Positions 5,098 to 38,669 of a stretch of DNA of 64,000 nt are shown piece by piece. This stretch comes from Dyella sp. GSA-30 (GTDB lineage Bacteria > Pseudomonadota > Gammaproteobacteria > Xanthomonadales > Rhodanobacteraceae), in assembly GCF_027924605.1 (NCBI RefSeq), contig NZ_AP027042.1, positions 907,524 to 971,523 of the forward strand, read 5' to 3'. Numbering within the stretch: the first letter of the stretch is position 1; each line of letters opens with the position of its first letter. Under the pieces are notes generated by a model, which had not been told where the DNA came from, searched no databases, and saw only the letters and a program-made list of their open reading frames with translations. The position numbers were made by a program, and so were the translations under genes.

Positions 5098-6105
5098 TCA
5101 GCGTGCGTCCGCTACGGCGTTGAAGCGCGCGGCGATGTAGTCGTCGGTAAAGCTGGTCATGTTGAAGCCGCTGATAAAACCGCAATGGCCACCGTAGCGG
5201 GAAATATCCAGTTCCACGTTGGATGGTAATTGCAGGTTGCGAAAGCTCGACACGGGAATCACCGGGTCGTCTTCGGCCGTAAGAATGGTGGCCCGGATCG
5301 GCATCGCTGCCAGCGCATTGCCGGCCACCGAATAGCCGTCCAGATAGGCCTGCAGCGAACCGAAGTCGGTATGGCGCAGCACCAGCGCTTCGGTCAGGCC
5401 ACGCAGGCTTTGCCTGAGTTCGGCCAGCTCGAAGAACTCGCGGTTGGGGAAGGCGGCCTGCTTGGTCTTCAACGAGCGGCGCCACTTGTGCATGAAGTAC
5501 GCCTGGTAGAACCACGGCGCGGTTTCTTCCAGCGAGAACAGGCCTTCGCCCGGATCGATGATCGGGCACACGGCGAGCGCGTAAACGAGCGGGATGCCAG
5601 CCTGCGGCGCACGCAAGGCGGCGCGCAACGCAAAATTACCGCCCAGCGAAAAGCCGGCCAGTGCCATCGGCCGCGCGGGATACCGCCGCGCGATATCGGC
5701 CAGCGCATTGACGACCTCGTCGATGCGGCAAGAATGAAACAGTGCTTCGTTGAGCTGGTGACTGTCGCCGTGATCGCGAAAGTTCAGCCGAAACACGTCC
5801 CAGCCGTCCTGCAGCAGGCGGCTGCCGGTCTGCAACACATAGGTGGAGTCGACGCTGCCTTCCCAGCCATGGAACAGCACGGCCAGGCCGCGAGCTTCTT
5901 TTTGCACGCGTTGGACGGTATGGGCACCGGTCAGTCGTACACCGTCGCCACCGTCGACCACCACATGCTCGGCACCGTCCTGCACGCTATGCGCGCGACC
6001 GGGCAACAGCTGGCGGCGCACGCCGCTGGACGAAAGCATGGTCTGGATGTGACCGCTGGTCAGCGGCCAGGGCGGACGAAAGTCCTTACCTGAGGGCAAC
6101 GTCAT
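5098..6105 (-). CDS. YheT-like alpha/beta hydrolase
   Basis: 335 residues. Starts FRPPWPLTSGHIQTML as in the YheT/ABHD1-3 family (COG0429). Oxyanion segment LFHGWEGS (~78), RLNFRDHGDS (~106), nucleophile elbow GFSLGGN with Ser153, acid TAEDDPVIP (~290) and the catalytic His in YGGHCGFI (~313) are all present. Relatives act as esterases on lipids or polyhydroxyalkanoate-type substrates; exact substrate unknown. Its ATG overlaps the plsC-like stop by four bases, so the two are translated together, which hints at a lipid-related role. Confidence 0.92.
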   Translation of the reverse strand: MTLPSGKDFRPPWPLTSGHIQTMLSSSGVRRQLLPGRAHSVQDGAEHVVVDGGDGVRLTGAHTVQRVQKEARGLAVLFHGWEGSVDSTYVLQTGSRLLQDGWDVFRLNFRDHGDSHQLNEALFHSCRIDEVVNALADIARRYPARPMALAGFSLGGNFALRAALRAPQAGIPLVYALAVCPIIDPGEGLFSLEETAPWFYQAYFMHKWRRSLKTKQAAFPNREFFELAELRQSLRGLTEALVLRHTDFGSLQAYLDGYSVAGNALAAMPIRATILTAEDDPVIPVSSFRNLQLPSNVELDISRYGGHCGFISGFNMTSFTDDYIAARFNAVADAR

Positions 6106-6947
6106 TGCGGGCTGTCTTCCAGCGCGGCGGCAATGCGTTCGCGCGAGTACTCCGCCATGCGACGGCGCGCATCCGGCGACGCCGGTACCGGCTCGAGGAA
6201 ATGCACCTCCGCATCCAGCGGCGCTTCGCCGAGCAGGCGCAGGAAGTTCTGCATGAAGTTCTCGTTCTCGCGGAAACCGGCGTCGACGACACGGCGACCG
6301 TTGCGCGCGAAACGTAGCGCCACCGGTTGCACGGCCACTTCGGCATCCAGTGCGGCCTGAAAGATGCGCGCATGGAAAACGCGCAGCACGCCGTTGTGCC
6401 CGGTGCCTCCTTCAGGGAACACGGCGACCGAACGGCCGGCATGCAGGCGGTCGACCATCACCTGCATCACCGCCGCCAGCGAATGGTTGCTACCGCGGCG
6501 GTGGAAAATGGTGCCGCCCGCGGCGGCCAGCCAGCCGACCAGGGGCCAATGGGCGATTTCGGCCTTGGCGACGAAACAGGCCGCGCGCTGGCTATGCAGG
6601 AGCTCGATGTCGATCCACGAGGTGTGGTTGGCCACGAACATGACCGGATCGGCCAGCGGTTGTCCCACTCGCACCGAGCGCAATCCGAAGATGCGCAGCA
6701 GTACGGTCGACCACCAGCGAATCATCCGGTGCGTAAACGGCTCACGGCCGTTCTTCATCACCTGATGGCGGTTCCAGGTCAGGATGCCGCCGCACAGCAG
6801 CACACCCAGCACGACGTGCAGCAGCAGCAGCGGCACGCGCCACAGGTAGCGCAAGGGACGAATCGGGTCGCTGACTCGGGCAGGAACGGTGTCGGTACTC
6901 ATCGGTCCGGTTAGTTTACCGTTAGTTGACGCGATTGCGGTCGCCAT
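6102..6947 (-). CDS. 1-acyl-sn-glycerol-3-phosphate acyltransferase family protein
   Basis: 281 residues from 6947; an alternative start MSTDTVPARV at 6902 lies after a non-homologous leader and neither has a strong ribosome site. An N-terminal membrane helix (~39-56) precedes the PlsC domain (PF01553): motif I NHTSWID with His108 and Asp113, motif II-like FVAKAEI, motif III FPEGGTG (~175), and VQPVALRF. It should transfer an acyl chain to lysophosphatidate or a related acceptor at the inner membrane. First gene of a two-gene unit with the YheT-like hydrolase. A housekeeping plsC elsewhere is likely, so this may be an accessory acyltransferase. Confidence 0.9.
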   Translation of the reverse strand: MATAIASTNGKLTGPMSTDTVPARVSDPIRPLRYLWRVPLLLLHVVLGVLLCGGILTWNRHQVMKNGREPFTHRMIRWWSTVLLRIFGLRSVRVGQPLADPVMFVANHTSWIDIELLHSQRAACFVAKAEIAHWPLVGWLAAAGGTIFHRRGSNHSLAAVMQVMVDRLHAGRSVAVFPEGGTGHNGVLRVFHARIFQAALDAEVAVQPVALRFARNGRRVVDAGFRENENFMQNFLRLLGEAPLDAEVHFLEPVPASPDARRRMAEYSRERIAAALEDSPQ

Positions 6948-29422: not shown

Positions 29423-30331
29423 ATGGCATCTGTCGCACCCGAATCTGCAGAAGCGATAACCATTCGTTGCGACGACGGCGTCGTGCTTGGTGGCCACTGG
29501 TGGCCGACCGCGACCGCAGTGCCTCTCGGACTGGTCGTCATCAATCCGGCGACTGGCGTGCTGGCTCGTTACTACCATTACTACGCGCGCTTTCTGACCG
29601 CGTCGGGTTTCGATGTCCTGACCTACGATTACCGCGGTATTGGCCTGTCGCGTCCCGAGCGACTGCGGGGCAGCGGTTATCGCTGGCGTGATTGGGGGCA
29701 ACTCGACTTCGATGCGGCGATTCGCTTCGCCAATCAGCGGCGCAGGCAAGGGGCCTTGCTGGTTGTTGGTCACAGTGTCGGCGGTTTTCTTCCGGGCCTG
29801 GCGAAAAATGGCCACCTGGTCGAACGCATGCTGACCGTGGGTGCGCAGTATGCGTACTGGCCTGACTACGCAGCGAAGCAGCGAGCCAGGCTGTTCTTCA
29901 AATGGCACGTGGTCATGCCTGCGGTTACGGCATTGCTTGGTTATTTTCCGGGCCGCAAGTTCGGCTGGCTGGAAGATCTGCCCGCCGGCGTCGCCAACGA
30001 ATGGAGCTTCAAAGGCGCGCGTACCGAACGCAGTTACCCCAAGGCCAGCCGGGCCGAGGTACTGGAACGCTTCGCTGCATTTCAGGCGCCCATTCTCGCC
30101 GTGGTCGTCAGCGACGATGAACTGGGCACCGTTTCGGCTGTGCGTCGCTCCCTGGGTTACTACGGAGCGGCAGCAAAGACCGAAGTGATGCTGTCGCCCC
30201 ATGACCTGGGTCAGAAGAGCGTGGGTCACTTCGACCTGTTCCATGCACGGCACACGCAGGGCTTCTGGGCGGACACGCTGCATTGGCTGCGTGACGGGAT
30301 CAATCCCTGGCCAGGCAAGCCATACGGCTAG
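29423..30331 (+). CDS. alpha/beta fold hydrolase
   Basis: 302 residues, no signal peptide. VVINPATGVLARYYHYYARFL near residue 38 forms the oxyanion region, FDVLTYDYRGIGLSRP (~62) strand 4, and VVGHSVGGFLPGL holds the nucleophile (Ser ~115). The C-terminal GQKSVGHFDLF offers the His. It resembles COG4757-type predicted hydrolases. Substrate unknown. Lies just downstream of the thioesterase gene. Confidence 0.9.
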   Translation: MASVAPESAEAITIRCDDGVVLGGHWWPTATAVPLGLVVINPATGVLARYYHYYARFLTASGFDVLTYDYRGIGLSRPERLRGSGYRWRDWGQLDFDAAIRFANQRRRQGALLVVGHSVGGFLPGLAKNGHLVERMLTVGAQYAYWPDYAAKQRARLFFKWHVVMPAVTALLGYFPGRKFGWLEDLPAGVANEWSFKGARTERSYPKASRAEVLERFAAFQAPILAVVVSDDELGTVSAVRRSLGYYGAAAKTEVMLSPHDLGQKSVGHFDLFHARHTQGFWADTLHWLRDGINPWPGKPYG

Positions 30332-30339
30332 CCCGCGGC

Positions 30340-30358
30340 GCGCTTACGCCATAAGCGC
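30340..30358. terminator. possible hairpin between hydrolase and membrane protein genes
   Basis: GCGCTTA / TAAGCGC arms around a CGCCA loop in the 48-base gap. No U-tract, so termination is uncertain. Confidence 0.35.
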
Positions 30359-30379
30359 TAAGCACAGGCTTTCCGGAAA

Positions 30380-31183
30380 GTGGCAAACTCGCCCGAGCCG
30401 GACTGGCTCCGAGGGGTTATGGCCGCGATTGCGATCAGCTTGGGCGTCTTTGTGCTGGCCTGGGTCGGCCTGTGGCTGGGCGCGTGGTTGGCGCCACGGT
30501 TGCCGCGGGATCACCTGTCCAACGACGCGCGCAACTCGGCGCAGATCGGTATCGGCATGATGTCGACGCTAGCAGCACTGGTACTCGGTTTCATGATTAC
30601 CTCGGCGCGATCCTCGTTCGATCGCGCAACCGATGATGTCGTCGCCGTATCGACGTCGATCGTGATGGTGGATCGTGCACTCTCGGGCTATGGCGAAGAG
30701 GCGCGTCCGGCACGCGATCAGCTGCGCGCCTTTCTGGATCGGGCGACAGGTCGTGTCGCGGGCGACGGCAATGTCAAAGAGGTCATCTTTCGTGTTCCGC
30801 TGACCAACCTCAGCTTGCTGACACAATTGCAGCAGTCGATCCTGGCGCTCAAGCCAGCCAATGACGCGCAACGCTGGTTTCAGGCACGCGCGTTGACGTT
30901 GAGCAGTGAACTGAGCCGTGAGCGTGTCGTTACCTCCGAACAGAGCGTGCAATCGGTACCCGTACTGTTGCTGGTGGTCGTCGCAGCCTGGGTCTTTCTG
31001 ATCTTTGTCGGCCTCGGCGCGTTCACCGTACACAACCGTTCGGTGCGCGTCGTGCTCGTCTGTTCCGCATTGGCTTTTGCCGGCTCAGTGTTTTTGATAC
31101 TGGAATTCGAAACGCCGTACTCGGGCATCATTCGGGTATCTGGCCAGCCTTTGTTAAATGCCGCCGAGGAGCTGGCGAGATAA
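30380..31183 (+). CDS. DUF4239-like (bestrophin-like) membrane protein
   Basis: 267 residues. Hydrophobic helices near 15-38, 58-75 (IGIGMMSTLAALVLGFMITSA), ~195-215 (VPVLLLVVVAAWVFLIFVGLGAF) and 223-240. The layout of two helices, a ~120-residue charged helical middle and two helices, with the FMITSARSSFDRATDDVVAVSTSI segment and a C-terminal EFETPYSGIIRVS, matches the DUF4239 family, distantly bestrophin-like. Function unknown; ion channel role is speculative. Its end overlaps the region upstream of the PLP enzyme. Confidence 0.75.
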   Translation: MANSPEPDWLRGVMAAIAISLGVFVLAWVGLWLGAWLAPRLPRDHLSNDARNSAQIGIGMMSTLAALVLGFMITSARSSFDRATDDVVAVSTSIVMVDRALSGYGEEARPARDQLRAFLDRATGRVAGDGNVKEVIFRVPLTNLSLLTQLQQSILALKPANDAQRWFQARALTLSSELSRERVVTSEQSVQSVPVLLLVVVAAWVFLIFVGLGAFTVHNRSVRVVLVCSALAFAGSVFLILEFETPYSGIIRVSGQPLLNAAEELAR

Positions 31184-31232
31184 CGCGCCGTCCTGCAAGA
31201 TAGCAGCGATAGCTTTGAGCAAAGGTTCGCTC

Positions 31233-32420
31233 GTGTCTGCCGATATCGCCCCGCTTATTTCCCCCGCGCAATTCGAGTTTTCCGCCGGTGGCCTATGGTT
31301 GTCGCACTGCAAGGATGGCCCGATGCCGCGCGTCGCGGCCAATGCGTTGATGGCCTTGCTGCAGACCGAGTTGCGGCCATGGGAGCTGCGCTGGCAGAGC
31401 GATTTCCTCGATGTGCAACAGAAGCTGCGCAACGCCGGCGCAGCCTTGCTTGGCGTGGCGGCCAAGGATGTGAGCCTGGTGACCTGCACTTCGACCGGAC
31501 TGGAAGCCATTGCCTATGGCTTTCCCTGGAAGGCCGGTGACGAGGTCGTCATACCGGCGGGTGAGTTTCCGAGTAACCGCCTGCCCTGGCTGGCACTGAA
31601 CCAACGCGGCGTGCGGTGCACCGAAGTCGACCTGTGGCCGAATCATCGCGTGCCCGATGCCACTATTGAGCCGGAGCATCTCCTGCTCGATGCGATCACG
31701 CCGAACACGCGTATCGTGGCGGTGTCATGGGTGCGCTTTCAGGACGGTATCCGCCTGGACCTGGCCAAACTCGGCCACGGTTGCCGCGCGCGCGGCGTGC
31801 ACCTGGTGGTCGACGGCATTCAGGGGGCCGGTACGATGGTGCCCGATCTCAAGCACGCCAGCGCTTTTGCTACCGGTGGGCACAAGGGGCTGTTGGGCGG
31901 GCAGGGGCAGGGCCTGCTGTGGACCGATGCGAACTTTCGTCGGCAGCTTCTGCCGCTGGGCACCTGGCTATCGGCACCCGCCAGCTTTTCCCAGGGCGGC
32001 GTCCAGGCGACCCACGAAAACCTCTGGGCCGACGACGGGCGCTATCTCGAAGCGGGCAGCCCGACCATTCTCGGTTGCGGCGCGCTGGCGGCGTCGATCG
32101 ATTTATTACTGGTCGCCGGCGGCGCGGCCGCCATTCGCGATCATGTCATCAAGCTGCAACTGCGCCTGCTCGACCGGCTCTTGCGATATCCCGCCTGGAG
32201 CAACGAAGCGACGCGCCTGAAGCGCCTGGTCGAGGCCCATCGTGTCGGCTCCGTACTTTCGTTTGCGCTGGAACAATCCACGATCGACGCCCTGCTGCAG
32301 CGTGGCGAAGCGCAAGGCATCAGCGCGAGCACGCGCGATGGTTATCTGCGCATCGCGTTGCACGGCTGGCACGCGTCGGGCGACATCGATCGGTGCGTCG
32401 ATTGGCTCACTTCGGGCTGA
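31233..32420 (+). CDS. class V aminotransferase-fold PLP enzyme
   Basis: 395 residues from GTG 31233 (AAAGG eight bases upstream); an ATG at 31158 would overlap the previous gene and adds a non-homologous leader. Fold type I motifs: TCTSTGLEAIAYGFPW (~84), GDEVVIPAGEFPSNRLPW, VSWVRFQDGIRLDL, VVDGIQGAGTMVPDL with the PLP-ring Asp, and FATGGHKGLLGGQGQGLLW with Schiff-base Lys218. C-terminal domain ends RIALHGWHASGDIDRCVDWL. This is the cysteine desulfurase/selenocysteine lyase/isopenicillin epimerase-like branch; substrate cannot be read from sequence. Confidence 0.88.
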   Translation: MSADIAPLISPAQFEFSAGGLWLSHCKDGPMPRVAANALMALLQTELRPWELRWQSDFLDVQQKLRNAGAALLGVAAKDVSLVTCTSTGLEAIAYGFPWKAGDEVVIPAGEFPSNRLPWLALNQRGVRCTEVDLWPNHRVPDATIEPEHLLLDAITPNTRIVAVSWVRFQDGIRLDLAKLGHGCRARGVHLVVDGIQGAGTMVPDLKHASAFATGGHKGLLGGQGQGLLWTDANFRRQLLPLGTWLSAPASFSQGGVQATHENLWADDGRYLEAGSPTILGCGALAASIDLLLVAGGAAAIRDHVIKLQLRLLDRLLRYPAWSNEATRLKRLVEAHRVGSVLSFALEQSTIDALLQRGEAQGISASTRDGYLRIALHGWHASGDIDRCVDWLTSG

Positions 32421-32515
32421 ACGAGCCTTCGGCCATGCTGGCCGTCTGACGCCTCGCGGTATATCGCGGTAGGCTTGCAGCTACCCATCCTGTGACCGAG
32501 CGGATCGAAGAACCC

Positions 32516-32860
32516 ATGGTTAACCATCAAGTAGCTTTTCCTGATGATGAAAACGGCGACGTGTTGCGCCAGATGACCGAGCAGGGCGACAACCTGGAGA
32601 CACCGCGCGAAATCGACTTCTCGGTCATCTTTCCCACCGAAGACGCTGCACTGAAGTTTGCGGTCCTGCTCTTGCGCAACGGCCAGAAAGTGTCGTTCTC
32701 CGAATACGAAGAACACGACGAACTGCCGTGGCAGGTCCAGGCCCATCCTTTCATGGTCCCCACCCACGAAAATATTTCCGGTTACGAGGCGTTGCTGGCG
32801 GAAGAGGCCGAAGCGTTTGCCGGGCAGAACGATGGCTGGGGATGTGAAATTCAGCAATGA
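32516..32860 (+). CDS. RraB-like ribonuclease E inhibitor family protein
   Basis: 114 residues from ATG 32516; a GTG at 32492 would add eight residues. RraB fold signature (PF06877): FPDDENGDVLRQMTEQGDNLETPREIDFSVIFPTEDAALKFA, then KVSFSEYEEHDELPWQVQAHPFMVPTHENISGYEALLAEEAE. The many acidic residues are typical. E. coli RraB binds the degradosome scaffold of RNase E; the same role is inferred. Overlaps the convergent hydroxylase-WD40 gene by ten bases. Confidence 0.9.
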   Translation: MVNHQVAFPDDENGDVLRQMTEQGDNLETPREIDFSVIFPTEDAALKFAVLLLRNGQKVSFSEYEEHDELPWQVQAHPFMVPTHENISGYEALLAEEAEAFAGQNDGWGCEIQQ

Positions 32861-34404
32861 GCGGAACGGCGGTGCGGCAACGTCCAACGAAGCTGCCCGT
32901 CGTATCCACAACTCACCCTCGCGCCATGGCGAAGCTCAAGCACGTCGGTCACGAAGTTTCCATGCATTTCTTCGTGCTTGAGCACCAGCGCCGGATAACT
33001 CCAGATGCACAGGCGGTTGTCTTCCCCACAGGTGACGAGCGAACCATCGCGCAGAAACCTGATTCGCCGGATGGCAGCATCGTGCGCCTTGAAGAATCCC
33101 ACCTCCCTTGCGCCTCCCTGATCCATCCGCCAAAGCGTCAGGCCGCCTTTTGCATCGCCCGCCGCCAGGGAACAGGCATTCTCTTGACCGGTCCGACACG
33201 AAGCGATGCTCCGCAACGGATGCTTGCAGCGTAACGCGAGGAGACATTCGCGCGTAGCGAGGTCCCAGATTCGTACGCTGCCGTCTTCCGATGCCGTTGC
33301 CAACCGGTCATCACCGAGATCCACCATTGCCCAGACCCATCCCTCATGGCCTGTAAATTCCTGCAGGCACTTTCCCTCGTCAGACCATAGGCGGATGGTG
33401 TGATCGGCGGCGCCTGTAGCCAGGTTTTCCCCTGGCAAGCGAACCAGCGAAAGTACGGCCGCATCGTGTGCCGTGATGGACCGAATGCAACGCTGCGTCG
33501 TGATGTCCCAATAGCGAAGCGTGCGGTCGCGTGAAACCGAGGCGATGACGCCTGCGGCACATTCAGTCAGGCCGAGTACCGACTGGTCATGGCCGATGAG
33601 TGTGACACTCGGTTCGCCCTGCGGATGCCAGATACGTATCTTTCCATCGCGTCCTCCGCTCGCAACGCGGCCGTCGCTGAGTTCGGCAAGTGTCCAGATA
33701 TAGCCCTGATGCAGCGAAGAAGTAGCGTGCTCTTGCACAGAACCGCGCTGAAACAGTAGATCGCTACGTAATACATACTTGGTGCCGGCGGTAACTTCTT
33801 CGCCTGCATGCCAGATGTCATGCTCGAAAAGAATCAGACTGCCCATTCGCGGTCGAATACGGGTGATGACGTTCGAAGCTTCTTCGCCGCCGGCTGGTCC
33901 TGCCGAATAGAACAAGGTGTCGCCGCCCTCGAAATCATCGCCATCGGTCAGGTAAATCATGAAGGTGAGCATGGAGCGACAATCGACTCCCCGGTGATGC
34001 ACCCCATCCTGATGAATATGAAACTGCTGCCCGGGTCGATACCGGCAAAGGCGGAAACGCTCATTGATGCTTCTTGGCTTCCAGCCTGCGAGGACATCGT
34101 CCGGTAGCAGGCATTCCATGCCGGCAGGGACCAGATGGCCAAGGCGTTCCAGCAATCGCCTGGCAAGTTCCGGATCATTCGAGACTTGCCTGTCGTTGTT
34201 TCTATACGAGGGTGGGTAATCCAGCTCGGCGCTGCAGAAGCCCCGGTCCTCGGCGGCATCGATCAGCTCGCTGCATTCGGCGGGCGATAAAAAGCCTGGA
34301 ATCAATACACAGCGCCCCAGGTCTGGCGGTAGCGGATGTTCGAGCATTCCGTGCCGGTTGCTACCCAAATCGAGGCCGTTTTTCTTATGACTCACTGCGA
34401 CCAT
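32851..34404 (-). CDS. prolyl 4-hydroxylase-like 2OG-Fe(II) dioxygenase fused to a seven-blade WD40 propeller
   Basis: 517 residues from ATG 34404 (GGTGAGG site). Residues ~30-220 form a P4H-type domain: FLSPAECSELIDAAE, RYRPGQQFHIHQD with iron ligands His131 and Asp133, MLTFMIYLTDGDDFEGGDT, then HDIWHAGEEVTAGTKYVLRSDLL with His199 and the 2OG-binding Lys209. Residues ~233-507 hold seven WD-type repeats starting near 233, 270, 311, 351, 391, 439 and 480, many ending in IRIW/YWD/IWD. Seven blades make a closed propeller, usually a protein-binding platform, so it may bind its own hydroxylation target. No signal peptide. Divergent from a TetR gene across a gap with two related palindromes. Substrate unknown. 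Confidence 0.9.
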   Translation of the reverse strand: MVAVSHKKNGLDLGSNRHGMLEHPLPPDLGRCVLIPGFLSPAECSELIDAAEDRGFCSAELDYPPSYRNNDRQVSNDPELARRLLERLGHLVPAGMECLLPDDVLAGWKPRSINERFRLCRYRPGQQFHIHQDGVHHRGVDCRSMLTFMIYLTDGDDFEGGDTLFYSAGPAGGEEASNVITRIRPRMGSLILFEHDIWHAGEEVTAGTKYVLRSDLLFQRGSVQEHATSSLHQGYIWTLAELSDGRVASGGRDGKIRIWHPQGEPSVTLIGHDQSVLGLTECAAGVIASVSRDRTLRYWDITTQRCIRSITAHDAAVLSLVRLPGENLATGAADHTIRLWSDEGKCLQEFTGHEGWVWAMVDLGDDRLATASEDGSVRIWDLATRECLLALRCKHPLRSIASCRTGQENACSLAAGDAKGGLTLWRMDQGGAREVGFFKAHDAAIRRIRFLRDGSLVTCGEDNRLCIWSYPALVLKHEEMHGNFVTDVLELRHGARVSCGYDGQLRWTLPHRRSAHC

Positions 34405-34418
34405 GACCTCACCATTTA

Positions 34419-34434
34419 TTGGTTGATCAACCAA
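34419..34434. promoter_or_regulatory. operator-like palindrome A
   Basis: Perfect 16-base palindrome TTGGTTGATCAACCAA, 15 bases upstream of the hydroxylase-WD40 start. The flanks (ATTT before, TTAT after) are shared with palindrome B 62 bases away, so the similarity extends over ~30 bases. Expected binding site of the divergent TetR protein. Confidence 0.8.
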
Positions 34435-34480
34435 GTTATGACGGACGTTACTCGTTCCAGGGCTGGCAATCAACTATTTC

Positions 34481-34496
34481 TTGGGTGTATAACCAA
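34481..34496. promoter_or_regulatory. operator-like palindrome B
   Basis: TTGGGTGTATAACCAA, 12 of 16 bases identical to palindrome A, with the same ATTT and TTAT flanks; 20 bases upstream of the TetR ATG. Together A and B could bind two TetR dimers on the same DNA face (62 bases, about six turns) and control both directions. Confidence 0.75.
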
Positions 34497-34516
34497 ATTA
34501 TAAAAAAGGACCCGCC

Positions 34517-35188
34517 ATGCCTCGCAAACCCAACACCGAGCTTCGCCGGCAGCAAATTGTCGATGGCTTGCTCAAGACCATCGCCACCCAGGGCTATGCA
34601 GGAGCTACCGTCCAGGCGATTGCAGCTGCCTCCGGGCTGGCGCCGGGGCTGATCCACTATCACTTCCACGACAAGCGCGAGATCCTGGTCGCGCTGGTAG
34701 ACCAGCTGGCCGGCTATGCATCGCATCGATTCGAATCCCGCGCCAGCATGGCGACCACCGCCCAGGGGCGACTGCGCGCCTATATCGATGCGCGTCTGGC
34801 CTATGGCGCCGATGCCAATCCAGACGCGGTGGCGGCCTGGGTAATGATCGGTGCGGAAGCCATACGCGATCCCGACGTGCGCGAGATCTACCAACGCGCA
34901 GTAAGCCAGGAGATCGCGCTGGTCAAGAAACTGCTCAAGGCGCAGCTTGTCGATAGCGGCAAGCGCGTGCGCAAGCTCGATGCCTTTGCAGCCGGCCTGC
35001 TGGCTTTCGTGGAAGGTGTGTTTGTACTCGCCAGCAATGCCCGAACTATCGTGCCGACGGGCTTTGCGGCGGACATGGCGAATGAATGGGTTCAGCGGTA
35101 TATCGCAGCGGAGCCGCCGGCCAATCAGCATGGCAAGCCTGATGGACCGGTTCCTTCTGTACGCAAGACGCGGGGGAGCGCGAAATGA
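34517..35188 (+). CDS. TetR family transcriptional regulator
   Basis: 223 residues; ATG 34517 follows AAAAAGGA. HTH: ELRRQQIVDGLLKTIATQGYAGATVQAIAAASGLAPGLIHYHFHDKREIL (~8-58), BetI-like in style. The ligand domain is helical (~70-200); the tail is Pro/Lys rich. Its TGA overlaps the HD gene start by four bases. It very likely represses itself, the HD gene and the divergent hydroxylase-WD40 gene via palindromes A and B. Ligand unknown. Confidence 0.93.
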   Translation: MPRKPNTELRRQQIVDGLLKTIATQGYAGATVQAIAAASGLAPGLIHYHFHDKREILVALVDQLAGYASHRFESRASMATTAQGRLRAYIDARLAYGADANPDAVAAWVMIGAEAIRDPDVREIYQRAVSQEIALVKKLLKAQLVDSGKRVRKLDAFAAGLLAFVEGVFVLASNARTIVPTGFAADMANEWVQRYIAAEPPANQHGKPDGPVPSVRKTRGSAK

Positions 35189-35853
35189 ACAAAGCCCTGG
35201 CGAAGGATATTGACCATCCGGCGCGTTTTGTCGCTACCGACTTCGCGGCTTGGTCCCGCGCCTGGGCCGGGCTCGGTGTCGCATTCGCGTCCAGGAACGT
35301 TTTCGACGAACTGCTAAGCAGCTATGGCGAGGCCCATCGCGCTTATCACACTCGTCAACATCTGGAGGATTGCCTCGTATCATTGGACGAGGTGCGTGAA
35401 CAGTGCGACCACGCGGATGAAGTCGCCATGGCCCTGTGGTTTCACGATGCCATCTACAAGCCGCGTCGCAGCGACAACGAAGCGGCAAGTGCTGATTGGC
35501 TGACACGCGTAGCTCGCGATTCAGGCGTGGTGGAATCTTCAGTCACGCGAATGCATGCTCTGATCATGGCGACACGGCACACGGCGGCTATTGATGAGCA
35601 TGATGCGAAAGTGCTTGTCGATATTGATCTGTCGATTCTTGGGGCGCCCGCCGAGCGATTCGACGCGTACGAGATGCAAGTGAGGCAAGAATACCGCTGG
35701 GTACCTGGCCCCATCTATCGAGCCAAGCGTGCCGACATCCTGCAAGGCTTCATGGATCGGCGCACTATCTACGAGACGCCGCACTTCCGCGCCCGGCTTG
35801 AGGAAGCGGCGCGAGAGAATATGCTTCGTTCGATCTCGTTGTTACGGCGTTAG
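35185..35853 (+). CDS. HD-domain metal-dependent phosphohydrolase-like protein
   Basis: 222 residues, ATGA overlap with the TetR gene. HD signature: YGEAHRAYHTRQHLEDCL (His55, His59), EVAMALWFHDAIYKPRRSDNE with the His87-Asp88 pair, then MATRHTA...DAKVLVDIDLSILG with the distal Asp. This is the COG4339 group often labelled 'NMDA receptor subunit-like' in databases; that name is an annotation artefact. Phosphohydrolase activity on a nucleotide-type substrate is inferred only. Its stop overlaps the convergent secreted protein gene. Confidence 0.9.
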   Translation: MNKALAKDIDHPARFVATDFAAWSRAWAGLGVAFASRNVFDELLSSYGEAHRAYHTRQHLEDCLVSLDEVREQCDHADEVAMALWFHDAIYKPRRSDNEAASADWLTRVARDSGVVESSVTRMHALIMATRHTAAIDEHDAKVLVDIDLSILGAPAERFDAYEMQVRQEYRWVPGPIYRAKRADILQGFMDRRTIYETPHFRARLEEAARENMLRSISLLRR

Positions 35854-36143
35854 TGGCTGCAGCTATAGATCGCGACATAACGCACGAGCGAGTCGGCGTG
35901 CTGGTCAACGCCCTCGGTCACCGGCATCGCCGTATGCGACACGATTTGTTTGAGCTTCGCATCGCCGGCACAGCCGCGTCGCGCTTCCTGTGCGCAAGGA
36001 GCATCTGTGGCATGGGTAAGCGTGCACTGGACCGTGACTTGATGCGCTTGGGTGCCGAGGGTCGGTGACTGCGTCGCCTGGGCGGATGCATAGCCCGAAA
36101 ATCCCAGTACAACCGGCAAGACCAACGTCCATGGGTGACTCAT
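35850..36143 (-). CDS. small secreted protein of unknown function
   Basis: 97 residues; AGGAGAGGACG before ATG 36143. Signal peptide ends GYASAQ. The mature ~75 residues contain four Cys (QCTLTHATDAPCAQEARRGCAGDAK and YSCSH), enough for two disulfides, consistent with a periplasmic protein. No family recognised. Convergent with the HD gene (4-base overlap). Confidence 0.75.
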   Translation of the reverse strand: MSHPWTLVLPVVLGFSGYASAQATQSPTLGTQAHQVTVQCTLTHATDAPCAQEARRGCAGDAKLKQIVSHTAMPVTEGVDQHADSLVRYVAIYSCSH

Positions 36144-36308
36144 CGTCCTCTCCTGTGACCGGAATAATCCGATGCGCGGGTTTATACCGCAGCCGGATGC
36201 TAGCGACGTTACATCGATCGCCGCCGGCTACAACGACCTGATCTGACGGCAATTTCTTTCGCTTCGACCATCTGGGACTACGTCCCTCACGCTCCCGGAG
36301 TTACTCTT

Positions 36309-38669
36309 ATGGCCTGGCTGGCCAGTCGGCCAAAAACGGCCAGCCGCTCCCCCATGACACCCTGCAGAGTCCGCGCCATGAGCAATGAAACCGAGATCCC
36401 AGGCGTATCCGAGTACGAAGGTCCTGCCGGTGGCTGGGGTGCGCTGCGGGCCGTGGCCAAGGCCATCAGCGGCCAGCTCGCGGTGGGTCGGGAAGCCTTG
36501 GCGCTAAGGAAGATGAATCAGCCGGACGGGTTCGATTGCCCTGGCTGCGCCTGGCCCGACCCCAAGCACACCAGTTCTTTCGAGTTCTGCGAGAACGGCG
36601 CCAAGGCGGTGTCGTGGGAAGCCACGGCCAAGCGCGTCAAGCCGGAATTCTTTCAGGCCAACACGGTGACATCGTTGTGGCAGTTGAGCGATTACGCACT
36701 CGAAGGCCTTGGCCGCCTGACCCATCCGCTGGCCTACGACGCGGGTAGCGACACCTATGTGGCGATCGGCTGGGACGATGCGATGCAACGCATCGGCACT
36801 GCGCTACGTGCGCTGCCCGATCCGCGCATGGCCGAGTTCTATACCTCCGGCCGTACCTCGAACGAAGCGGCATTCCTGTATCAGGCGTTTGTGCGCGAGT
36901 ACGGCTGCAACAACTTCCCCGATTGCTCGAACATGTGCCACGAGGCCACTAGCGTGGGCTTGCCCCAGTCGATCGGCGTCGGCAAGGGCACGGTCACGAT
37001 CGAGGATTTCGATCATTGCGATGCGGTCTTTTGCATTGGCCACAATCCGGGCACCAACCATCCGCGCATGCTTGCGACCTTGCGCGAGGTCGCCAAGCGC
37101 AACGTTCCCATCGTCGCGATCAATCCGTTGCCCGAGCGTGGCCTGGAGCGATTCACCTCGCCGCAAAGCCCGGTCGAGATGATGACGGGCGGCGAGACGC
37201 CGTTGGCCACGACGTATTACCAGGTGAGCTGCGGCGGCGATCTGGCGTTTCTCAAGGGCATGATGAAATGGCTGCTGGACGCCGATGCGCAGGACATCGC
37301 CGGCGGTGGGCAGGGTCTGCTCGATCGTGCGTTCATTGCGGAGAACACGACCGGCTTCGAGGCGCTGGCCAGCGACCTCCGTGCCACGCAGTGGAGCGAT
37401 ATCGAAAGCAAGAGCGGGCTGTCCCGTGCCGATATCGAGCACGCCGGTTCGATCTACGCGCAGGCCAAGCGCGTCATCATCTGCTACGGCATGGGCATCA
37501 CCCAGCATCGCCACGGCACGCAGAATGTGCAGCAGCTGGCGAACCTGCTGATGCTGCGAGGCAATCTCGGCCGCGAAGGCGCCGGCATCTGCCCGCTGCG
37601 CGGTCATTCCAATGTGCAGGGCGATCGCACGGTCGGCATTACCGAGAAACCCGATGCCGCGCTCATCAAAGGCATGAAGCTCGCGTTCGGTTTCGATACA
37701 TCGCCGGAACACGGCCACGATGCCGTGGCTGCGGTCAAGGCGATTCGCGACGGTCAGTCCAGAGCGTTGATATGTCTGGGCGGTAACCTTGCGGTGGCGA
37801 TGCCCGATCCCGACGCTACCTTCGATGCGATGCGCAAGCTCGACCTAGCCGTGCATATCGCCACCAAGCTCAATCGCTCGCATCTGATCCTGGCCAAGGA
37901 GTCGATCATCCTGCCGTGCCTGGGCCGCACTGAAATCGATATGCAGGCCGAAGGCGCGCAGTCGGTGACGGTGGAGGATTCCATGTCGATGGTCCACGCC
38001 TCGCGCGGCGGCCTCACACCGGCCTCGGAATATCTGCGTTCGGAGCCCTGGATCGTCGCCCAGATGGCCAAGGCGACTCTGCCCGACACACGGGTGGATT
38101 GGGATCACCTGATCGCCGATTACGATCGCATCCGTGACAAGATCGAAATCGTGTTTCCGGCCTTTGCCAATTTCAATCAGCGCGTACGCGAGCCGGGCGG
38201 CTTCCGTCTGTTTATCGCGGCATCCGAGCGCAAATGGAACACGCCGGACGGCAAGGCGCATTTCCTGGTGGCGCCGGGCATCGAGGAAGACGATGGCCTC
38301 GAAGATGGCACGCTGGTGCTGACCACGCTGCGCGCGCACGACCAGTACAACACCACCATTTACAGTCTCAACGATCGTTATCGCGGCATTACCGGTCGCC
38401 GCGATGTGATCTTCATGCATGCCGACGACCTCGCCGCGCGCGGCCTCAAACACGGCGATCGCATCGTCGTCGAAACCTCTGCAACCCGGGCCAAGCGTTC
38501 GGTGGTTGGCTTTACCGCCGTGTCCTATCCGATCGCCCGCGGCACGGTGGCGATGTATTACCCGGAAGGCAACTGCCTGGTAGGGCTGGACGACCATGAC
38601 CCCCAATCGGGCACGCCGTCGTACAAGTCCGTTCCGGTGGTCATACGGGAGTGGCGAGAGGCGTCGTGA
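36309..38669 (+). CDS. FdhF/YdeP family molybdopterin oxidoreductase
   Basis: 786 residues from ATG 36309 (GGAG eight bases upstream); an internal ATG at 36378 (MSNETEIPGVSEYEGPAGGW) is close to the start of E. coli YdeP and may be the true one. Strongly YdeP-like: GFDCPGCAWPDPKH (~80), FYTSGRTSNEAAFLYQ, NFPDCSNMCHEATSVGL, IGHNPGTNHPRML, ICYGMGITQHRHGTQNVQQL, GICPLRGHSNVQGDRTVG, and YNTTIYSLNDRYRG near the C-terminus. It should bind bis-MGD; ydeP is linked to acid resistance in E. coli. No FdhD or electron-transfer partner gene is adjacent, so the redox partner is unknown. Confidence 0.93.
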   Translation: MAWLASRPKTASRSPMTPCRVRAMSNETEIPGVSEYEGPAGGWGALRAVAKAISGQLAVGREALALRKMNQPDGFDCPGCAWPDPKHTSSFEFCENGAKAVSWEATAKRVKPEFFQANTVTSLWQLSDYALEGLGRLTHPLAYDAGSDTYVAIGWDDAMQRIGTALRALPDPRMAEFYTSGRTSNEAAFLYQAFVREYGCNNFPDCSNMCHEATSVGLPQSIGVGKGTVTIEDFDHCDAVFCIGHNPGTNHPRMLATLREVAKRNVPIVAINPLPERGLERFTSPQSPVEMMTGGETPLATTYYQVSCGGDLAFLKGMMKWLLDADAQDIAGGGQGLLDRAFIAENTTGFEALASDLRATQWSDIESKSGLSRADIEHAGSIYAQAKRVIICYGMGITQHRHGTQNVQQLANLLMLRGNLGREGAGICPLRGHSNVQGDRTVGITEKPDAALIKGMKLAFGFDTSPEHGHDAVAAVKAIRDGQSRALICLGGNLAVAMPDPDATFDAMRKLDLAVHIATKLNRSHLILAKESIILPCLGRTEIDMQAEGAQSVTVEDSMSMVHASRGGLTPASEYLRSEPWIVAQMAKATLPDTRVDWDHLIADYDRIRDKIEIVFPAFANFNQRVREPGGFRLFIAASERKWNTPDGKAHFLVAPGIEEDDGLEDGTLVLTTLRAHDQYNTTIYSLNDRYRGITGRRDVIFMHADDLAARGLKHGDRIVVETSATRAKRSVVGFTAVSYPIARGTVAMYYPEGNCLVGLDDHDPQSGTPSYKSVPVVIREWREAS

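Follow-up and report, generated by a model that had tools for sequence, protein, structure and literature searches.

A 2OG-Fe(II) oxygenase–WD40 fusion gene with a divergent TetR regulator in Dyella and other bacteria: a candidate hydroxylase with a putative docking propeller

The locus, the fusion gene and its distribution

The window—the whole stretch of 64,000 nucleotides of Dyella sp. GSA-30 DNA analysed here—carries on its minus strand, at 32851..34404, a single open reading frame of 517 amino acids that joins a 2OG-Fe(II) oxygenase domain to a WD40 propeller. The start codon is the ATG at 34404, with a ribosome-site-like stretch (GGTGAGG) directly upstream, and both domains are recognised by Pfam (2OG-FeII_Oxy_3 at residues 119–212, 49.7 bits against a cut-off of 27; WD40, 117.5 bits against a cut-off of 27). 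An earlier note on this DNA gave exactly these coordinates, and its account of 517 residues in one frame behind one ribosome site agrees with the minus-strand reading; the strand is what has to be added, as the plus-strand reading of 32851-34404 is full of stops. The note described this gene by itself, which stands, and passed over its surroundings: a divergent TetR-family gene, a pair of putative operators and a linked HD-type gene.

The TetR-family regulator (BetI-like; PF00440/PF13977) lies on the plus strand at 34517..35188, divergent to the fusion, and scores 42.8 bits for PF00440 against a cut-off of 24. Its stop is overlapped by the start of a 222-amino-acid HD-type metal-site protein (35185..35853, plus strand). 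An Rfam scan of 30000–38000 matched no RNA element in the promoter, and a simple scan between the fusion and TetR genes found no sigma-70-like promoter. Downstream, the end of the fusion gene meets a convergent RraB-like gene (32492–32860). The window also holds a class-V aminotransferase gene (31158-32420; below every NCBIfam cut-off) beside one for a Bestrophin-like membrane protein (30380-31183; PF14023) and, near the HD-type gene and on the same strand, a gene for an FdhF/YdeP-type molybdopterin oxidoreductase (36309-38669; TIGR01701, 969 bits).

Bacterial WD40 domains are frequent in defence-like proteins, and PADLOC returned two generic matches at this locus, so an anti-phage or other defence function was considered. 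These matches reflect bare 2OG and WD40 domains, however, and the neighbours are housekeeping-type genes; moreover, no phage or plasmid record covers 80% of the fusion protein, which also disposes of a phage or plasmid origin. A role in defence is accordingly the least credible of the readings weighed here, and we regard it as highly improbable.

The fusion recurs well outside this genome. A search of 233 genomes from the family of this Dyella found five more that carry it in full, at 47–60% identity, and two further genomes have it in a different family of the order. A wider scan with a degenerate pattern recovered 28 loci. After removal of duplicates there are 32 loci, the window included, two of them cut by contig ends, leaving 30 complete copies. 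The 28 loci of the pattern scan come from Dyella, Lysobacter, Tahibacter, Undibacterium, Massilia, Andreprevotia, Chitinimonas, Achromobacter, Albitalea, Rhizobacter, Aquabacterium, Pseudomonas, Hyalangium and other Myxococcota, Acanthopleuribacter (Acidobacteriota), and Nocardia (Actinomycetota).

The 31 loci other than the window encode proteins 33–60% identical to the window protein, in Pseudomonadota, Myxococcota, Acidobacteriota and Actinomycetota, and all keep the identical two-domain order. Recurrence on this scale, across four phyla, is far beyond chance and rules out a read-through or sequencing artefact; the earlier note had argued against chance read-through from the single frame, and had named absence of the fusion from all relatives as the sign of an artefact. 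In the gene tree, one same-family copy (G156) groups with Pseudomonas (100/100) and Massilia groups with Chitinimonas (98/93). These cross-lineage groupings, together with the patchy presence of the gene, point to spread of the fusion by horizontal transfer. A sixth relative within the family (L025, G173:C16, about 6011-6229) preserves the last 73 propeller residues only, at 55% identity; since a search of that genome also found no window-like TetR, the piece is probably the remnant of a lost locus.

The oxygenase domain and the propeller

The oxygenase domain (33739..34344, minus strand; residues about 21-222) passes the curated cut-off of PF13640 and adopts a P4H-type double-stranded beta-helix in its AlphaFold2 (AF2) model; modelled alone from 27 sequences, it reaches a pLDDT of 92. 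His131, Asp133, His199 and Lys209, which make up the HxD...H iron triad and the basic 2OG residue, are identical in all 30 complete orthologues and stand where the earlier note had placed them; Tyr122, Arg116 and Arg118 are likewise invariant in this set. Two single-domain oxygenase relatives (L010 1486-2154 and L015 1351-2022) have the same RNN-R motif; Pfam matches both weakly to the poxvirus C4/C10 family, and only L010 exceeds the cut-off.

The best fold match of the oxygenase model is 3dkq, a putative Shewanella oxygenase (Z 18.5), followed in near ties by the algal P4H 3gze (Z 17.7), PiuC 9qn4 (17.5), vCPH (17.1), LH3 (16.6) and PHD2 (16.2). With P4H, PiuC, LH3 and PHD2 scoring so nearly alike, the fold does not reveal the substrate. 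A sequence search of solved structures weakly favours vCPH, the sole match at E < 0.001. In the HIF-PHD type (PHD2), the distal 2OG-binding residue is an arginine; at this position the fusion has Lys209 in 30 of 30 sequences. The PKHD-type model NF003974 reaches 25.3 bits against its equivalog cut-off of 143. Judged by model and motif, the domain matches the fold group of P4H, PiuC and PHD2 and is a candidate hydroxylase. The earlier note's "prolyl-4-hydroxylase" thus holds for an intact Fe/2OG domain, while the prolyl label goes further than a fold equally near to P4Hs, lysyl hydroxylases and PiuC allows.

The remainder of the protein (32872..33720, minus strand; residues about 229-511; PF00400) forms a seven-blade WD40 propeller in the full-length AF2 model (mean pLDDT 85). 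The modelled propeller superposes on whole seven-blade propellers—LIS1, RACK1, WDR5 and designed ones—over 272-281 residues, with Z of about 36–37.5 and rmsd of 1.6-1.8 A. The outer strand of blade 7, expected from the linker at about 222-234, is unassigned in the model, where pLDDT falls below 50 at 224-230. With this exception the complete ring described in the earlier note is borne out; the incomplete propeller and dead iron site that it had listed as grounds for doubt are not what is observed, the whole ring being predicted and the iron residues being invariant.

On the top face of a WD40 propeller, the contact positions are R1-2, R1 and D-1 of each blade. They were assigned here by the H-x-x-[R1-2]-V-[R1] rule, giving 21 positions, with the rule ambiguous for blade 5. 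Over the 30 complete sequences, these positions are on average 93% conserved. The corresponding figure is 55% for the propeller as a whole, 50% and 38% for its bottom loops and 33% for its outer strands. In 20,000 random draws no value approached the observed one, though this test is only a guide, because the sequences are related, blade 5 is ambiguous and conservation is partly structural. Ten informative top-face residues are invariant (Tyr235, Arg252, Ser275, Arg292, Trp356, Trp358, Glu373, Glu461, Phe484 and Tyr501), as are alanines 316 and 333, and several structural His/Asp of the WD40 repeat are more variable than the contact residues.

The simplest reading of this pattern is that the top face binds one conserved ligand, which may be a protein, the enzyme's own oxygenase domain or a small molecule; contact with an oligomer partner could also account for it. 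The near-invariant surface lends indirect support to the substrate-recognition module proposed in the earlier note, in which docking itself would be the inferred step.

The divergent TetR gene, its putative operators and the HD-type gene

A divergent, window-like TetR gene adjoins the fusion at 23 of the 32 loci. The other nine comprise a locus at a contig end (L051), Hyalangium, where the TetR lies elsewhere in the genome, three Lysobacter loci, one from Nocardia and three myxobacterial ones; whole-genome searches at E 1e-15 detected no such TetR in the three Lysobacter genomes, Nocardia and one myxobacterial MAG. The Lysobacter loci (L021, L022 and L044) keep the fusion without TetR, operators or an adjacent HD-type gene, and other control must therefore exist there. 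Copies without a detected TetR in Lysobacter, Nocardia and several Myxococcales show that the switch is not essential to the fusion.

Within the family, the association is strict: at E up to 1e-30, the TetR occurs in exactly six of 230 genomes, the same six that carry the fusion. Co-occurrence of this kind would arise by chance once per about 2×10^11 draws if the genomes were independent; the six come from six different genera. The distance matrix of the TetR correlates with that of the fusion (r = 0.93), a figure to which common descent contributes. Such coupling would be expected of an oxygen- or 2OG-sensing loop in which the substrate of the fusion is its own TetR, or the HD-type protein, so that O2 sets expression in a PHD-HIF-like manner. 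Fusions lacking such a TetR still keep the conserved top face, however, and the TetR alignment shows no standout invariant proline-containing tail; we consider this loop improbable.

The HD-type gene is less tightly tied. It adjoins at 16 of the 32 loci, following the TetR in some and the fusion in others, and its protein, which presumably resembles COG4339, has conserved H/HD/H/D residues in alignment and no profile match in Pfam or NCBIfam. Its distances correlate with those of the fusion (r = 0.91, with a contribution from common descent). Of the 230 family genomes, 18 carry a relative, 13 of them without the fusion, which rules out the HD-type gene as an obligatory part; it is an optional, loosely linked partner.

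Two putative operators lie in the 112-bp region between the divergent genes of the window. The first, TTGGTTGATCAACCAA (34419..34434), is a perfect palindrome 14 bp before the fusion start codon, and the genome has no other such site at one mismatch or fewer; the second, TTGGGTGTATAACCAA (34481..34496), lies 62 bp away and 20 bp ahead of the TetR start. At 22 of the 23 TetR-bearing loci the joint promoter holds two TTGGTTGnnCAACCAA-type sites, exact or variant, spaced 52–64 bp apart, and the remaining locus has a single such site. Several Pseudomonas sites match at 9–10 of 14 positions, no better than chance matches in random sequence; what speaks for them is their spacing and position.

Twelve genomes were searched in full for the operator, allowing up to one mismatch and with a control pattern run alongside. 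Nine contained the site, and eight of them have it at the fusion locus and nowhere else; the ninth, Acanthopleuribacter (10.8 Mb), has extra matches in line with the control pattern. The other three genomes, whose sites are more diverged, gave no match at this threshold. With a looser pattern, Hyalangium (13.6 Mb) contains just two sites, one before the unlinked TetR and one before the fusion, and other genomes show few extra matches, at about control level. These data suggest a TetR whose cognate operators are confined to its own targets, with binding predicted from site sequence and position.

At the unlinked Hyalangium TetR (L124 3802-5618), the regulator is followed, with a 4-bp overlap, by a gene for an MFS transporter that resembles the RhtX/FptX siderophore and AmpG groups without reaching the cut-off of either. 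Across the other loci no transporter is seen repeatedly, and a recurrent transporter link was rejected.

Ligand-induced metabolic or detoxification genes typically have this arrangement, beside a divergent TetR whose regulon is private to them. The fusion may thus be a small-molecule enzyme that hydroxylates the metabolite sensed by the TetR (a siderophore, natural product or toxic compound), with the propeller as a scaffold, lid or oligomerisation part. The appearance of 3dkq and of PiuC, an iron-uptake 2OG oxygenase, among the nearest folds is consistent with this, as are the patchy, transferred distribution and the Hyalangium transporter. Against it, conservation of the top face is close to that of the catalytic site, a constraint that a plain scaffold would not require; a transporter is not a recurring feature of the other loci, and the PKHD-type score is far below its cut-off. 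We treat a small-molecule substrate as the main rival to the reading favoured below, a serious possibility that falls short of probable.

Interpretation and comparison with known systems

The reading we favour, with confidence at about an even level, is an on-demand cytosolic Fe(II)/2OG hydroxylase of the P4H superfamily that docks its substrate on its own propeller under a private TetR. The substrate, most likely a protein or peptide, would dock on the WD40 top face and so be brought to the Fe(II)/2OG active site; the linker is flexible in the model, which leaves the geometry of presentation unfixed. The dedicated TetR would sit on the two operators between the divergent genes as a repressor controlling only itself and the fusion, until a small molecule binds and releases it and the fusion is made. 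The fusion and its conservation, the intact active site, the whole propeller with its conserved top face, the paired operators and the private regulon are computational results, from which catalysis, docking, a protein as substrate, repression by the TetR and the inducer are inferred. Several points weigh against this reading: TetR pairs guard small-molecule enzymes or pumps more often than protein modifiers, the TetR goes undetected for the Lysobacter, Nocardia and several Myxococcales copies, and a conserved top face would equally result from contact with the oxygenase domain, an oligomer partner or a small molecule.

If the docking reading is right, the propeller would be a ready-made bait for the substrate, since the enzyme seems to carry its own docking part; and as the locus has its own on-switch with a mapped operator, culturable Pseudomonas or Dyella could serve to screen for the natural inducer. 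Only a handful of proteins, chiefly EF-Tu and those of the ribosome, are known to be substrates of bacterial protein hydroxylases. A broader and rather doubtful proposal is that the system is a bacterial counterpart of eukaryotic O2-dependent protein hydroxylation, in which a self-contained hydroxylase, with its propeller as reader, would mark a single partner common to the four phyla under a private one-target repressor.

The open-licence literature yielded no paper describing a 2OG oxygenase–WD40 architecture, in keeping with the earlier note's statement that no characterised bacterial enzyme was known to have it. Both domains and the TetR are of known kinds. Their combination, in which the fusion has both a conserved top face and a two-site regulon of its own, is undescribed in the open-licence papers searched and, to our knowledge, elsewhere. 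Pseudomonas PPHD (4iw3), which acts on EF-Tu, shares the common bacterial P4H-superfamily 2OG fold (Z 15.6), but was solved as a single domain, lacks a propeller and is 15% identical to the window protein. Cr-P4H1 (3gze) and PBCV-1 vCPH (5c5t) resemble the window oxygenase in fold (Z 17-18), and algal and viral P4Hs use a lysine as the distal 2OG-binding residue, as the window protein does; they differ in lacking a propeller and in acting on proline-rich peptides, at identities of 19-28%. The PiuC/PKHD-type enzymes (9qn4, 9ghl; 3dkq) give the top fold matches (Z 17-18.5), yet their solved chains are without WD40 repeats, and the window protein falls below the PKHD-type cut-off. A parallel in working principle is Dictyostelium AgtA, a Skp1 glycosyltransferase: AgtA is eukaryotic and its catalytic domain is unrelated, but it too joins a modifying activity to a WD40 propeller, on which Skp1 docks.
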